This document shows positions 7,262 to 12,850 of a stretch of 64,000 bases of DNA, in pieces (the first letter of the stretch is position 1; every line of letters begins with the position of its first letter). The position numbers and the translations under genes were made by a program. The stretch comes from Ramlibacter henchirensis (GTDB lineage: Bacteria > Pseudomonadota > Gammaproteobacteria > Burkholderiales > Burkholderiaceae_C): contig NZ_SMLM01000001.1 of NCBI RefSeq assembly GCF_004682015.1, forward strand, positions 1,116,001-1,180,000. Direction: 5' to 3'. A model generated the notes under the pieces. It was not told where the DNA came from. It made no database searches and saw nothing but the letters and a program-made list of their open reading frames with translations.

Positions 7262-8296
7262 TCAGGCGATGCGCCGGAACCAGAGCACCGACAGCGTTCC
7301 CGCGGCGAACATCACCACCGCCGATGCGAGCGCGAGCAGCGCGGTGAGTTCGTTCTCGCGGGTGACGATCTCCACGCGCGAGCCGAGGTTCTCGTAGACG
7401 CTGCGAAGTTTCTCGGCGGTGCCCGCGTAGAAGTACTCGCCGCCCGTCATCCGCGCCACCTCGCGCAGGGTGGGCTCGTCCAGCCGCAGGTAGATCGGCA
7501 TGCCCTCGGCGGAAGCGGCCTCGCCGTCCACCGTGCCCAGCCCCACCACGTAGATGCGCACGCCGCGGTCGGCCGCCATCTTCGCCGCCAGCAGCGTGTC
7601 GATGCCGGTCGTGCGGCGGCCATCGCTCAACAGGATGATCGCGGCGGAGCGGTACGAGCCCGGCGGAACCGGCTTGATGTTCCTGGGTGGCGGCTTGTCC
7701 TTCTCGTCGAGGCTGCGCCCGTGCAGCCTGCCGCCGGCCGCCAGTTCCTCGAGGTCCAGGCCGTGGTCGGGGAACAGCTCCGTCAGGCTCATCACGATCG
7801 CGTTGCCGACGGCGGTGCCCATCTGCATCTGGAAGCCGTCGATCGCCGCCACCAGCGACTTGCGGTCCAGCGTCGCCCGCTGCGCGACCTGGGTGCTGCC
7901 TGCGAAGGTGACCAGGCCGACCTCGATGTCCGCCGGCAGGTCGTGCAGGAAGAGCTTGGCCGCATCCTGCGCGGCAGCCAGCCGGGTGGGCTTCACGTCG
8001 GTAACGCGCATGCTGAGCGACACGTCCATGGTCAGGATGATCGTGGTGCGCGCCCAGGGAAGCGCCACCCGCGCCACCGGCCGCGCCGACGCGAGCAGCA
8101 GTCCGGCGCACGCCAGCAGCAGCAGGGCGGGCGGCACGTGCCGGCGCCACTGCGAGCCTGCTGCTTCGCGGACGACCTTGACGCTGCTGTAGCGCACGGC
8201 CAGTCGTGCCCGGCGGCGCAGCAGCCAGATGTAGAGCACCGGCAGCAGCGCGAGCCCGAGCATCAACCACAGGTATTGAGGCCACAGGAAAAACAT
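7262..8296 (-). CDS. VWA domain protein, BatA-like
   Basis: 344 residues. Two hydrophobic segments at the N-terminus (residues about 5-25 and 55-72) are followed by a von Willebrand A domain, with a final membrane helix near residue 320. The metal-binding MIDAS residues are visible: DVSLS at 91-95 (DxSxS) and the later LLSDGRR. This is the BatA/Aerotolerance layout, with the VWA domain placed between membrane anchors, probably on the periplasmic side. Bat proteins usually sit with a MoxR ATPase and other Bat genes. None is present here, so it is an orphan copy. It is transcribed away from the TetR gene. Confidence 0.85.
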   Translation of the reverse strand: MFFLWPQYLWLMLGLALLPVLYIWLLRRRARLAVRYSSVKVVREAAGSQWRRHVPPALLLLACAGLLLASARPVARVALPWARTTIILTMDVSLSMRVTDVKPTRLAAAQDAAKLFLHDLPADIEVGLVTFAGSTQVAQRATLDRKSLVAAIDGFQMQMGTAVGNAIVMSLTELFPDHGLDLEELAAGGRLHGRSLDEKDKPPPRNIKPVPPGSYRSAAIILLSDGRRTTGIDTLLAAKMAADRGVRIYVVGLGTVDGEAASAEGMPIYLRLDEPTLREVARMTGGEYFYAGTAEKLRSVYENLGSRVEIVTRENELTALLALASAVVMFAAGTLSVLWFRRIA

Positions 8297-8369
8297 CTCG
8301 GATGCTCGCCGCGCTGGTGCAGTGCATCGGCATCGTGCGCCCGAAGCGGCGCGTTGGCAACCGCGCGTG

Positions 8370-8398
8370 TTGACTCCGCAGGCGTTCTTGCGCAGACT
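8370..8398 (+). promoter_or_regulatory. Candidate sigma70 promoter for the TetR/acyl-CoA mutase operon
   Basis: TTGACT (8370-8375) and CAGACT (8393-8398) are separated by 17 bases. The -35 box matches the consensus at five of six positions and the -10 box at three of six. The predicted start of transcription would fall inside the palindrome at 8403-8416. Confidence 0.35.
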
Positions 8399-8402
8399 AA
8401 AC

Positions 8403-8416
8403 CAAACGAACGTTTG
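8403..8416. promoter_or_regulatory. Palindromic operator, probably bound by the adjacent TetR protein
   Basis: CAAACG-AA-CGTTTG is a perfect inverted repeat with six-base arms and a two-base centre, ending six bases before the TetR start codon. TetR repressors commonly bind such palindromes over their own promoter. The position overlaps the predicted transcription start, so autorepression of the operon is the natural reading. Binding itself is inference. Confidence 0.55.
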
Positions 8417-8422
8417 CTATTC

Positions 8423-9028
8423 ATGCCCGCCGCCCAGAAAGCCTTGCGCGCCCCGCGCGCGGACAACCGCATGCCCGAGCTGCTCGATGCGGCGGCGCGC
8501 CTGTTCGCGCAGCGCGGCTATGCGGCGACGTCCATGCGCGACATTGCGGTCGCGGCCCACATGCTGTCGGGCTCCCTCTACTACCACTTCCCGTCCAAGG
8601 ACGAGTTGCTTCTCGCGGTCTACCGTGCGGGCGTCGAAGAGCTGGAGAAGGCCGGCCAAGAAGCGGTCGAGCGCGAGTCCGATCCCTGGCTGCGGCTGGA
8701 GGCGCTGTGCCGGGCCCACCTGGAAACCGTGCTGCGCGACAGCGACTACGCGCAGGTCCTCATCCGCGTGCTGCCGGACGACATTCCGCGCATCGCCGAC
8801 CGCCTGCGCGCCTTGCGCGAGAACTACGAACGCGCGTTCCGGGACGTGATGGCGCGCCTGCCGCTGCCGCCCGGCACCGACCGCCGCGCGCTGCGGCTGA
8901 TGCTCATCGGGGCGCTCAACTGGGCCCCGTTCTGGTTCGACCCCCAGGGACGCGACTCCCCGCGCGTCCTGGCGAGGAAATTCGTGGGACTGGTGAAGGA
9001 GACGCAGGATGGCCGCACGTCCGCCTAG
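8423..9028 (+). CDS. TetR/AcrR family transcriptional regulator
   Basis: 201 residues. The N-terminal helix-turn-helix is clear (LLDAAARLFAQRGYAATSMR followed by DIAVAAHMLSGSLYYHF). The C-terminal ligand domain is TetR_C-like. It leads an operon for a B12-dependent acyl-CoA mutase, overlapping the cobalamin-subunit gene by 20 bases, so its inducer is plausibly an acyl-CoA handled by that enzyme (inference). A palindrome directly in front of the start (8403-8416) suggests autoregulation. ATG at 8423 starts the conserved domain; the longer upstream frame is antisense to the VWA gene. Confidence 0.9.
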   Translation: MPAAQKALRAPRADNRMPELLDAAARLFAQRGYAATSMRDIAVAAHMLSGSLYYHFPSKDELLLAVYRAGVEELEKAGQEAVERESDPWLRLEALCRAHLETVLRDSDYAQVLIRVLPDDIPRIADRLRALRENYERAFRDVMARLPLPPGTDRRALRLMLIGALNWAPFWFDPQGRDSPRVLARKFVGLVKETQDGRTSA

Positions 9029-9431
9029 GGTGATCGTGACGAAGATCGGGTTCGACGGGCACGACCGCGGCAGCCGCGTGATCGCCGCCTGCCTGCGCGA
9101 TGCGGGCATGGAGGTGATCTACACGCCGCCGTGGCAGGAGATCCCCACCGTGGTGAAGCTCGCGATGGAAGAGGACGCCGACGTGATCGGCATCTCCTCG
9201 CTGGCCACCGACCACCTGATCGTGCCCAGGCTGATGTCCGCGCTGCGCGATGCCGGCATGGGGGACGTCCAGGTCATCGTGGGCGGCATCGTGCCCCATC
9301 GCGACGAGGCCGTGCTGCTCGAAAGCGGCGTCGCCCGCGTGTTCCATCCCGGCACGTCGCTCGACGACGTGGTGGCCGAGGTCCGGGCGCTCACCGCGAA
9401 GCGCCGCCAGATGCAAGGAGCTTCCGCATGA
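9009..9431 (+). CDS. Cobalamin-binding small subunit of an acyl-CoA mutase
   Basis: 140 residues, a stand-alone B12-binding domain of the methylmalonyl-CoA mutase C-terminal type. The base-off/His-on signature is present as [12 protein letters not shown] (DxHxxG), followed by the conserved GISSLATDH and VGGIVPHRD. Separate small subunits of about 135 residues are typical of isobutyryl-CoA and 2-hydroxyisobutyryl-CoA mutases rather than of fused methylmalonyl-CoA mutases. It pairs with the large subunit that starts at its stop codon (ATGA overlap). Confidence 0.92.
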
Positions 9432-11110
9432 ACGCCATCCTGAAGCCCACGCCCGGCGAGCTGCCGGAAGAGGGCCACGAGCGCTGGTCGGCCGAATTCG
9501 CCGCGGCCGTTCCCGGTGATGCGACGACCTTCAACCGTTCCGGCATTCCGATCAAGCCGCTCTACACGCCGCGCGACTGGAACGGCCAGGCCTGCGAGCA
9601 GCACCTGGGCTATCCCGGGCAGTACCCGTACACGCGCGGCATCTACCCGTCGATGTACCGCGGCCGCAGCTGGTCGCAGCGCCAGCTGGTCGGCCTGGGC
9701 GTGCCCGAGGACTACAACCTGCGCGTCAAGGAAGTCCTGCGGCTGGGCGCATCGGCCCTGTCGCTGCTGCCCTGCAACTCCGTCTTCCGCGGCTATGACG
9801 CCGACGAAGTGCCGCCCGAGCTGCTGGGCACCTGCGGCACCGTGATCAACCACGTGGGCGACATGGAGGCGGCGCTCGACGGCGTGCCCATCGGCGACAT
9901 CTCCACCGCGATGAACGATCCCACGCCGTTCACCCTGCTGGCCTTCGAGCTCGCCGTGGCCAGGCGCCGCGGCGTGCCGTGGAGCCGCATCACCGGCACC
10001 TCCAACCAGAGCGACTGCATCTCGCACTTCGTGGCCAACCACATGTTTTTCCGGCTCGCGCTGCAGGGCGCGCGGCGGGTGATCGTGGACCACATCGCGT
10101 TCTGCAACGAGCAGGTGCGCGGCTGGAATCCGCTCTCCGTCGTCGGCCAGCACATGCAGCAGGCGGGCGCCACGCCGGCGGAGGCCATGGCCTTCACGCT
10201 CTGCTCGGCGATCCAGTACGCGGAGGACTGCATCGCCCGCCGCATGGACCCGGACGAGTTCCTGCCCCGCTTCACCTTCTTCTTCGACATCTCCATCAGC
10301 TTCTTCGAGGAAGTGGCGAAGTTCCGCGCCGGCCGCCGCATCTGGGCGCGCCTGTGCAAGGAGCGTTTCGGCGCGAAAGACCCGCGCTCCTGGCGCTTCA
10401 AGTTCCACGGGCAGACGTCGGGCGTGGACCTCACGCGCCAGCAGCCGCTGAACAACATCGCGCGCGTCACGGCGCAGGCGATGGCGGGCATCTTCGGCGG
10501 GCTGCAGTCGCTGCACACGGACAGCTACGACGAGGTGTTCTCCACGCCGACGGCCGACGCCGCCCGCATCGCTGTCGCCACGCAGAACGTGCTGCGCGAA
10601 GAGGCGCATCTCACCGATGTGATCGATCCGCTCGGCGGCTCTTTCTTCGTCGAGGCGCTCACCGACGAGATGGAGAAGAAGATCGAATCCCTCATCCGCA
10701 TGATCGACGAAGCCGGCGGCATGTACCAGGCGGTGGAGAAGGGCATCGTGCAGCAGATGATCGGCGACTCGGCGCTCGCCTTCCAGAAGAAGATCGACAG
10801 CGGCGAGCAGACGCTCGTGGGCGTCAACGCCTACCAGGTCGAGGAAGACCCGGCCGACTATCCGGCGCTGGAGTACCCCGACCCGCAGCGCATGAAGGCC
10901 TACCTGGAGCGCCTTGCGCAGTTCAAGCGCAGCCGCTCCAACGCCGACGTGCAGAAGGCCCTCGGTGAGCTGGCGCGGTCGGCCAACGACCCCCAGCTGA
11001 ACGTGTTCGCCCATGTGGTGTCGGCCGCCGAAGCGGGTGCGACCCACGGCGAGATCTGCCGCACGCTGCGCGAGGAACTGGGTTTCGGGCACGTGCTGGC
11101 GATGGTGTGA
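9428..11110 (+). CDS. Catalytic large subunit of a divergent B12-dependent acyl-CoA mutase
   Basis: 560 residues, the length of the substrate-binding subunits of two-subunit mutases (IcmA/HcmA type), with a TIM-barrel start [15 protein letters not shown]. The catalytic His is kept (GQHMQQAG, His242) and so is the block [10 protein letters not shown]. The pocket differs from known subfamilies. By hand alignment the position of methylmalonyl-CoA mutase Tyr89 is Leu87, that of Arg207 is Asn204, and that of the Asp117 of 2-hydroxyisobutyryl-CoA mutase is Leu114. A carboxylated substrate therefore looks unlikely; a neutral, probably bulky or branched acyl-CoA is my inference. It overlaps its B12 subunit and its GTPase chaperone by four bases each. 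Confidence 0.9.
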
Positions 11111-12330
11111 CCGCCTTGGACGAGAGCCTCACCCGGAGAATCCTGCGCGGCGACCGCCGCACGGTGGCGCAGGCGATCAGCTGCCTGGAAGCCGGCGACG
11201 AGCGCGCGATCGACGTGCGCCGCGCCATCGCCGCCCACCAGGGCAGGGCGCATGTGATCGGCGTCACCGGCCCGCCCGGCGGCGGCAAGTCGACGCTGGT
11301 CTCCGCCTTGATCAAGGGCCTGCGCGAGCGCGGCCGCACCGTGGCCGTGGTGGCCGTCGATCCGTCGAGCCCCTACACCGGCGGCGCGGTGCTGGGCGAC
11401 CGCATCCGCATGGGCGAGCACCAGGCCGACGAAGGCGTGTTCATCCGTTCGCTGGCTTCGCGCGGGCACCTGGGCGGCTTGGCGACCGCCGCCGCCGACG
11501 TGATCGACCTGTTCGACGCGGCGGGCTTCGACGTCGTGCTGGTGGAGACGGTGGGCGCGGGCCAGTCCGAGGTGGAGATCACCCGTTATGCCGACACGCG
11601 CGTGGTCGTCTGCCCGCCCGGCCTGGGCGACGAAGTGCAGGCGATCAAGGCCGGTGTGCTGGAAATCGCCGACGTCTTCGTTGTCACCAAGGCGGACCTC
11701 CCCGATGCGCGAAGGACCGAGTCCGAACTGCAATCCATGCTGGGCCTGCGCCGCAACGCGAGCTGGACGCCCGTGGTCCGGAAAGTGTGCGCGACTTCCG
11801 GCGAAGGCATGGACGCGCTCCTGAACTGGCTGGACGATCGCCCACAGCGCGGGCTGCGCCATGCGTCCGTCGGCGAGAACAAGGCACGGACGGTGGTGAC
11901 CGGGTGCCTGGCGGCCGACAACTTCGGCCAGTCGCTAGGCATCGAGCTCGTGTCGGCGTCCGCCGGCAACGTGACGCTGCGCATGCAGGTGCGGCGCGAG
12001 CACATGAACTTCAACAATCGCTGCCACGGCGGCGCCATCTTCGCGTTCGGCGACATGGCGCTGGGATTGGCCTGCAACTCCCATGGCCAGATGGCCACGC
12101 TGGTGGACAGCGGGATGAGCATCTCGACCGCCGTCGAGGAAGGCGAGTGGCTGATCGCGCAGGCGACCGAGGTCTCGCGCTCACGCAAGATCGGCAGCTA
12201 CCAGGTGAAGATCACGCGGGCGCGGGACGACGCGCACGTGGCGCTGCTGCACGGCACGGTGTACGTGCTGGACCGGCCGGTCGAAGTGGCCGGGAGCGCG
12301 CCGCAGACCGGCGCGACGCAGGCTCAGTAG
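11107..12330 (+). CDS. MeaB/ArgK-type GTPase chaperone fused to a hotdog thioesterase
   Basis: 407 residues. Residues 1-255 are the G-protein chaperone that loads and protects B12-dependent mutases: Walker A GPPGGGKS (55-62), [10 protein letters not shown] (84-93), ETVGAGQSE (147-155) and TKAD (194-197). Residues 271-390 are a PaaI-type hotdog thioesterase domain with [14 protein letters not shown] (His307, Asp316). MeaB proteins are normally near 330 residues and end in a dimerisation arm; here that arm appears replaced by the thioesterase, which could itself mediate oligomerisation. The GTG start overlaps the mutase stop (GTGA). Hydrolysis of mutase substrates or products, releasing CoA, is inference. 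Confidence 0.9.
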
Positions 12331-12494
12331 CCGCCGCCTCCGCCCCCGCCGGCGCCGCCGCCAGGATCGGCGCTCGTGCTGCCCGCCGACGTGCCGCTGT
12401 TCGGGGACCTCCCGGTCGTCTGGCAACCGGCCAGCGCGGCCGCGAGCACGATCAGGAACACGGTGAGCGGACGGACGACGGATCGTGACAGCAT
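12324..12494 (-). CDS. Small glycine-rich lipoprotein
   Basis: 56 residues: signal peptide with lipobox LAGC (Cys24), then a Ser/Gly-rich tail ending in a glycine run. The start ATG at 12494 has a good AAAGGAG ribosome site. No function is known for this kind of protein. Its stop overlaps the end of the convergent GTPase gene by seven bases. Confidence 0.6.
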   Translation of the reverse strand: MLSRSVVRPLTVFLIVLAAALAGCQTTGRSPNSGTSAGSTSADPGGGAGGGGGGGY

Positions 12495-12616
12495 GGAAGG
12501 CTCCTTTCGGGTCGCAGGGCGACACCGCAGGAGGTTCATGCTATGCCGGGCGACTGCGAATGCAAGCCGGCTGCAACCGCGAGCCGACTACCTCGCGCGA
12601 GCGCCCGTTGAGCTGT

Positions 12617-12850
12617 CTACTTGTCTTCGCTGTCGGGAAGCGCCAGGTCGGCTGCAGCACCGACGGCCTTGCCCGTCAGCCTGACGGTGCCGATCGCCGC
12701 GTCAGCCGCCAGGCCGCCGGCCGAGATGGCCAGGGAAGCCGCCGTGTCCACTGCCGTCACGACGGCGCAGCCGCCCAGCGATGCACCGCAGGCAACGAGA
12801 AGGAGGGCGCTGGCGGCGCGGCGGCTGGGGGCGAGGTGGATCAACGGCAT
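12617..12850 (-). CDS. Small alanine-rich lipoprotein
   Basis: 77 residues. The N-terminal signal ends in a lipobox (LGGC, Cys28), followed by AVVTAVDTAASLA and an Ala/Gly-rich amphipathic stretch that ends in a short acidic tail. Small outer-membrane-type lipoproteins with a similar AVDTA start occur widely in Proteobacteria; their role is unknown. It lies alone between two short intergenic stretches. Confidence 0.65.
   Translation of the reverse strand: MPLIHLAPSRRAASALLLVACGASLGGCAVVTAVDTAASLAISAGGLAADAAIGTVRLTGKAVGAAADLALPDSEDK

Follow-up and report, generated by a model that had tools for sequence, protein, structure and literature searches.

A split acyl-CoA mutase operon of the putative pivalyl-CoA mutase type, encoding a MeaB-thioesterase fusion protein, in Ramlibacter henchirensis

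We analysed a 64,000-nucleotide stretch of the Ramlibacter henchirensis genome (contig NZ_SMLM01000001.1, positions 1,116,001 to 1,180,000; hereafter the window), which contains an operon encoding an adenosylcobalamin (AdoCbl)-dependent acyl-coenzyme A (acyl-CoA) mutase (Table 1). Four tightly packed genes on the forward strand (8423-12330) encode a TetR-family regulator, the small and large subunits of the mutase and a protein in which a MeaB-type chaperone is fused to a thioesterase. These genes overlap by 20, 4 and 4 bases in order, the two 4-base overlaps lying between the small- and large-subunit genes and between the large-subunit and fusion genes. An earlier note on this DNA had placed an AdoCbl acyl-CoA mutase at 9009..11110, and we found that this range spans both subunits and that the large subunit matches Pfam MM_CoA_mutase (E = 4.3e−166). 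The mutase is of the split AdoCbl type, with both subunits encoded side by side, as in pivalyl-CoA mutase (PCM).

Table 1 Features of the mutase operon, with positions counted from the first letter of the window. MCM, methylmalonyl-CoA mutase; HCM, 2-hydroxyisobutyryl-CoA mutase; aa, amino acids.
Feature	Position	Strand	Basis
TetR-family regulator, first gene of the operon	8423..9028	+	TetR_N and TetR_C_24; 3' end runs 20 bases into the small-subunit gene
Small subunit, cobalamin-binding, 140 aa	9009..9431	+	PF02310, TIGR00640; 68% identity to Xaut_5044 over 126 aa
DGHDRG of small subunit (cobalt-ligand motif DxHxxG)	9054..9071	+	Motif match
Large substrate-binding subunit, 560 aa, PCM-like acyl-CoA mutase	9428..11110	+	PF01642, TIGR00641; 65.5% identity to Xaut_5043 over 99%; clade position
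Leu87 codon	9686..9688	+	Aligns with MCM Tyr89, HCM Ile90
Leu114 codon	9767..9769	+	Aligns with MCM Ala116, HCM Asp117
Asn204 codon	10037..10039	+	Aligns with MCM Arg207, HCM Gln208
His242 codon, catalytic His	10151..10153	+	Aligns with MCM His244
MeaB-type G-protein chaperone (about aa 1-245) and PaaI-like hotdog thioesterase (about aa 271-389), one protein	11107..12330	+	PF03308, PF03061, TIGR00750; TIGR02286 below cut-off; PDB matches MeaB 8dpb/2qm7, PaaI 1j1y

Residue equivalences were taken from HMMER alignments to PDB chains and from MAFFT alignments, with the HCM residues Ile90, Asp117 and Gln208 in literature numbering. The alignments confirmed the catalytic histidine and the three pocket residues which the earlier note had aligned by hand (Leu87, Leu114 and Asn204), and also its statement that this set fits none of the Tyr/Arg, Phe/Gln and Ile/Asp/Gln types of MCM, isobutyryl-CoA mutase (ICM) and HCM respectively. 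Two blocks which it had described as differing strongly from the usual ones, LLPCN and GTSNQSD, are indeed strongly unlike those of other mutase types. Relative to the MCM, HCM and IcmF sequences compared, the GTSNQSD block carries one inserted residue, and MCM Asp118, Tyr243 and Glu247 are replaced by Cys116, Gln241 and Gln245.

A protein search of plasmids returned six records with ≥ 60% identity to the large subunit, one of which holds Xaut_5043, encoded on pXAUT01 of Xanthobacter autotrophicus Py2. Xaut_5043/Xaut_5044 is reportedly the pivalyl-CoA/isovaleryl-CoA mutase known as PCM. The Leu/Leu/Asn set and the catalytic histidine are identical in Xaut_5043 and the window enzyme, and the further departures (Cys116, Gln241, Gln245 and the inserted residue) are all present in Xaut_5043 too. 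The pocket had been called unrecorded, which does not hold, as this exact set occurs in Xaut_5043 and the PCM type was missing from the types considered.

Scanning one genome per species yielded 426 pattern matches, 293 of which encode a relative, and the best 80 of these were examined. Adding the window enzyme and the sequences from five of the six plasmid records brought the set to 86 sequences, in which near-copies and genomes with two copies were kept. Leu87, Cys116, Gln241, NQSD and His242 were found in all 86 sequences. Position 114 was occupied by Ile in 72 sequences and by Leu in the other 14, position 204 was Asn in 84 and Leu in two (L033 and L036), and the pocket set L-I/L-N was complete in 84. 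The odd pocket residues are not due to chance, because they are kept over the 86 sequences. A database search found 7947 relatives above threshold, of which 120 were listed, the window's own protein included; Leu87, Cys116, Asn204, Gln241, His242 and the set L-I/L-N were present in all 120. In the public annotation encountered here these genes go under the names of methylmalonyl-CoA mutase or of an acyl-CoA mutase large subunit.

Several members of the 86-sequence set are worthy of separate mention. The two betaproteobacterial sequences with Leu for Asn204 (L033:5829-7448 and L036:875-2494) also have Val for Pro115 and retain Cys116 and Leu87, a possible substrate shift inside the clade; a further copy in the L036 genome (L056) carries Asn204. 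One locus filed as a Propionibacterium sp. metagenome-assembled genome (MAG; L027, JALHFX010000001.1) carries an operon of betaproteobacterial type, probably through a binning or naming error. The sequences from a Desulfovibrionaceae MAG (L013) and a Desulfobulbaceae MAG (L019) lie on contigs of 7 and 5 kb and are 80% and 79% identical to the betaproteobacterial window enzyme, indicating either contamination or recent transfer.

We built two trees. The quick tree contained 52 sequences (41 PCM-like rows from the set of 86, four PDB chains, three paralogs from the window's own genome and four other plasmid mutases), and the program warned of long branches, chiefly that of IcmF. All 41 PCM-like rows, including the window enzyme and Xaut_5043, fell on one side of a branch whose SH-like approximate likelihood ratio test (SH-aLRT) value was 100; the stem measured 3.13 changes per column. 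In the careful tree of 37 sequences, from which IcmF and 15 PCM-like rows were left out and to which Xaut_5021 was added, 26 PCM-like rows were joined at 100/100 (ultrafast bootstrap (UFBoot)/SH-aLRT, the bootstrap being not fully settled), with MCM and HCM as separate groups. Neither tree held a named ethylmalonyl-CoA mutase or a stand-alone ICM. A long stem separates the PCM-like clade from MCM, HCM and the four other plasmid mutases. Within the clade the window enzyme lies among mostly betaproteobacterial rows, those of Hydrogenophaga and Diaphorobacter included, and does not adjoin Xaut_5043. A phylogeny had been proposed as a check on whether the enzyme falls in its own clade; it does, apart from MCM and HCM and with full support, but the clade includes Xaut_5043. 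Because Xaut_5043 shares both the clade and the three residues, the window enzyme is placed inside a clade which is already characterised, provided that Xaut_5043 is indeed the reported PCM, and the suggestion of a new substrate was not borne out. The odd pocket is the signature of an already described, little-known type of acyl-CoA mutase.

From the gene content, gene order, residues and clade, all observed directly, we infer the substrate and direction of the reaction: the window operon is most likely a PCM operon, whose product, isovaleryl-CoA, would pass to leucine catabolism. Kitanishi, Cracan and Banerjee reportedly showed in the Journal of Biological Chemistry in 2015 that the Xanthobacter PCM interconverts pivalyl-CoA and isovaleryl-CoA. 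Our literature search did not find Xaut_5043/5044 as PCM among the matches listed. Under the general mechanism of AdoCbl mutases, the small subunit would hold AdoCbl in the base-off/His-on form, and substrate binding at the large subunit would lead to homolysis of the Co-C bond. The 5'-deoxyadenosyl radical would then abstract hydrogen from a methyl group of pivalyl-CoA and the CO-SCoA group would move to the radical carbon, reversibly giving isovaleryl-CoA, which would enter leucine catabolism. With Leu87 instead of Tyr/Phe and Asn204 instead of Arg/Gln, the pocket may have space for the quaternary carbon and lack the partner of a carboxylate. The MeaB domain would serve in loading and repair of the cofactor, the fused thioesterase probably releases CoA from stalled acyl-CoA, and the operon would be under TetR control.

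The surroundings of the mutase gene were compared across 86 loci, many of which end at contig edges. The small-subunit gene lies directly upstream in 82 loci and the MeaB gene directly downstream in 75, and a TetR gene lies directly upstream in 70, the window included. An acyl-CoA synthetase with ≥ 50% identity to the operon synthetases of Xanthobacter, Diaphorobacter or Roseovarius was found ≤ 6 kb downstream in 18 of the 86 loci (15 of the 61 with ≥ 6 kb of downstream sequence), while looser open reading frame clustering found a synthetase anywhere in the fetched stretches in 28. Two further loci (L043 and L061) have such a synthetase upstream on the opposite strand, and Liv-type (branched-chain-type ABC transporter) permeases with ≥ 50% identity follow in 15 of the 86. 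Where they occur, the linked synthetases and permeases suggest uptake of a carboxylate, its activation and then its rearrangement. Directly after the operon, Pseudosulfitobacter has genes for a carboxyltransferase, a hydratase, a biotin carboxylase and an acyl-CoA dehydrogenase, a cluster of methylcrotonyl-CoA carboxylase type which suits an isovaleryl-CoA route. Its carboxyltransferase scored 612 bits as AccD1, 589 as methylcrotonyl-CoA carboxylase and 428 as geranyl-CoA carboxylase, and the best PDB matches of its dehydrogenase are not isovaleryl-CoA dehydrogenases. The carboxylases near two Ramlibacter loci (L052 and L089) were also considered as methylcrotonyl-CoA carboxylases, a candidate weakened by the lack of a clear match.

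The genome from which the window comes encodes one PCM-like mutase, one of MCM type (Tyr/Ala/Arg), one of IcmF type with Phe and Gln (the middle position being Ser in one alignment and Ala in another) and a second split mutase. The latter (G000:C2:686851-690693, also L106:6852-10694) has Tyr/Ala/Arg, stands beside a CaiB-type CoA-transferase and MeaB, forms a long branch in both trees and is perhaps for a substituted succinyl-CoA. A cobalamin adenosyltransferase and CobD/CbiB are present. A cluster encoding a carboxyltransferase, an acyl-CoA dehydrogenase, a hydratase, a biotin carboxylase and an HMGL-like protein (C1:2342-2350 kb), which resembles the one in Pseudosulfitobacter, is probably for leucine catabolism, and another carboxylase cluster is of geranyl-CoA type (637 vs 474 bits). 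Liv-type ABC genes at C1:1586 kb, about 460 kb away, are accompanied by an acyl-CoA synthetase which shares 74% identity with the one in the Diaphorobacter operon. We considered this cluster as the missing half of the pathway, an idea which was weakened by the family-wide count given below. Among the nine mutase-bearing genomes in the window's family, at least four have a synthetase match ≤ 5 kb from the mutase.

A number of points weigh against the assignment to PCM. The assignment depends on the reported assay of Xaut_5043/5044, and Xaut_5043 is not the nearest kin of the window enzyme inside the clade, so that the substrate could have drifted; our confidence is limited for these two reasons. 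In 46 of the 61 loci whose downstream sequence was long enough, no linked synthetase at 50% identity was found, and no such synthetase or transporter gene stands beside the window's operon. Kin of the distant synthetase at C1:1586 kb occur in 169 of 200 genomes of the family, as against nine for the mutase (the transporter genes being outside this count), and this synthetase is therefore not specific evidence. A leucine-type neighbour cluster is clear in the Pseudosulfitobacter locus only, and the carboxylase genes near the two Ramlibacter loci are of uncertain type. NCBIfam gave the genome's own carboxylase no methylcrotonyl-CoA carboxylase name, and the names it did give were not decisive.

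It is possible, but in our view unlikely, that the same chemistry serves another natural substrate: longer or other 2,2-dimethyl (quaternary) acyl-CoAs, for example from gem-dimethyl terpenoids, would be converted to 3-methylacyl-CoAs, and pivalyl-CoA would be a test-tube proxy. The varied neighbourhoods speak for this, as a thiolase, an enoyl-CoA hydratase or an acyl-CoA dehydrogenase is found near some loci and a synthetase ≤ 6 kb downstream in 15 of the 61 that have enough sequence, as do the apparent width of the clade (293 loci encoding a relative, the best 80 examined) and the geranyl-CoA carboxylase-type cluster in the window's genome, which is however unlinked to the operon. Pivalate is also mostly encountered as a synthetic chemical, which counts in the same direction. 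On the other side, the pocket residues are near-invariant across the sequences examined, and the Xanthobacter member reportedly acts on a C5 substrate.

It is very improbable that the enzyme is a mutase for methylmalonyl-CoA, ethylmalonyl-CoA, isobutyryl-CoA or 2-hydroxyisobutyryl-CoA which tolerates an odd pocket. The enzyme shares with these mutases an overall identity of 35-37% and a common family, but the Tyr/Arg, Phe/Gln and Ile/Asp/Gln sets are all absent, the enzyme falls outside the MCM and HCM groups at full support in trees without a named ethylmalonyl-CoA mutase, its scores are far under the NCBIfam equivalog cut-offs, and the genome already has its own MCM-type and IcmF-type enzymes. 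We rejected MCM on Leu87/Asn204 for Tyr89/Arg207, on the tree and on a PRK09426 score of 419.2 bits against a cut-off of 876; HCM on Leu/Leu/Asn for Ile90/Asp117/Gln208 and its place in another clade; and ICM or IcmF on Leu/Asn for Phe/Gln, the split subunits and an NF045497 score of 203.7 bits against a cut-off of 1500. A mutase of a never-described substrate class, for which one could cite the unlikeness to the three types known to the earlier reader together with Cys116, Gln241, Gln245 and the inserted residue, was rejected as scarcely credible, since all of these differences and the pocket residues are shared by Xaut_5043, which is reported to have been assayed.

The fusion of MeaB with a thioesterase is a notable architectural variant. 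Its first part is a P-loop GTPase of the MeaB family (TIGR00750, 294.8 bits vs a cut-off of 240.75; PF03308), of which the C-terminal part is not matched: TIGR00750 ends at 236 of 300 and PF03308 at 233 of 273 positions, and the hotdog domain then follows. The MeaB profile beyond about position 236 is the dimerisation part. Both domains, MeaB (2qm7/8dpb) and the PaaI thioesterase (1j1y), are recognised in the product. The MeaB match extends to about residue 245; four unfused relatives, from Xanthobacter, Sphingobium, Roseovarius and Pseudosulfitobacter, have a C-terminal extension of MeaB in the place of the hotdog domain. In Xanthobacter and Pseudosulfitobacter the thioesterase is encoded by a gene of its own. 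Searching the 86 loci by tblastn with Xanthobacter proteins, we found the fusion in 42, the window included, and the two genes apart but near in 6; a further 18 had MeaB without a thioesterase match, 9 had MeaB near a contig end, 3 had a thioesterase match only and 8 had neither, counts which may miss distant thioesterases or MeaB proteins because of the queries used. By count of the listing, both domains occur in 115 of the 120 listed database relatives and CHGG in 119. Thauera humireducens is among these relatives; a Thauera was reportedly isolated on pivalate under denitrifying conditions, for which our literature search found no paper. According to PMC10481361, MeaB functions as a dimer; in IcmF, the mutase is wedged open by the second protomer. 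The hotdog domain of the fusion may now supply the dimer.

More speculatively, and with a low probability in our estimation, the enzymes of this clade might serve a natural and widespread route for acids with a quaternary carbon (2,2-dimethyl acids) and not only a pollutant pathway. The C-terminal part of MeaB would have been swapped for a hotdog thioesterase, so that a single protein would take care both of loading the mutase and of removing stalled acyl-CoA at one site, and the window enzyme could then prefer an acyl group larger than pivalyl.

Within 8200-12700 we found no promoter-like sites, and two terminator-like matches were both at chance level. A DUF3182 protein (PF11379, E = 4.5e−137) is encoded upstream of the operon at 805-2007 of the window. 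For the large subunit, AlphaFold2 gave a model with a mean predicted local distance difference test (pLDDT) score of 52.9, which was not used, and the model of the MeaB-thioesterase protein had a mean of 76.3; no conclusion rests on the latter.

PCM-like enzymes are not rare, being encoded by the 293 loci of the scan, of which 80 were examined, and by 9 of 200 genomes in the window's family. These genes could be named correctly by the combination of L-(I/L)-N, GTSNQSD and GQHMQQAG, and the fusion of MeaB to a thioesterase offers a testable way into the question of how B12 chaperones dimerise or are coupled to their mutases.

We compared the window operon with known systems. MCM (PDB 1req, 2xij and 6oxc) shares the catalytic histidine, the family and the AdoCbl motif but has Tyr89/Arg207 where the window enzyme has Leu/Asn, and belongs to another clade. 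IcmF (PDB 4xc6) also ties a MeaB-like G-protein to a mutase, but it does so in a single chain with Phe/Gln, whereas the window has separate subunits and a G-protein fused to a thioesterase. PMC10481361 and PMC9974510 state that IcmF also interconverts pivalyl-CoA and isovaleryl-CoA. HCM of Aquincola tertiaricarbonis (PDB 4r3u) is the best PDB match of the window enzyme and likewise has split large and small subunits, but at 37% identity it has Ile/Asp/Gln in place of Leu/Leu/Asn and lies in another clade. Xaut_5021, the other mutase on pXAUT01, is 83% identical to 4r3u over 504 columns and carries Ile/Asp/Gln. In the PCM operon of Xanthobacter autotrophicus Py2 (Xaut_5043/5044, pXAUT01), MeaB and the thioesterase are separate genes followed by a CoA ligase, a synthetase and ABC genes, whereas in the window they form one protein with no synthetase or transporter after it; the order TetR, small subunit, large subunit, MeaB and thioesterase (Xaut_5045-5041) is the same in both.

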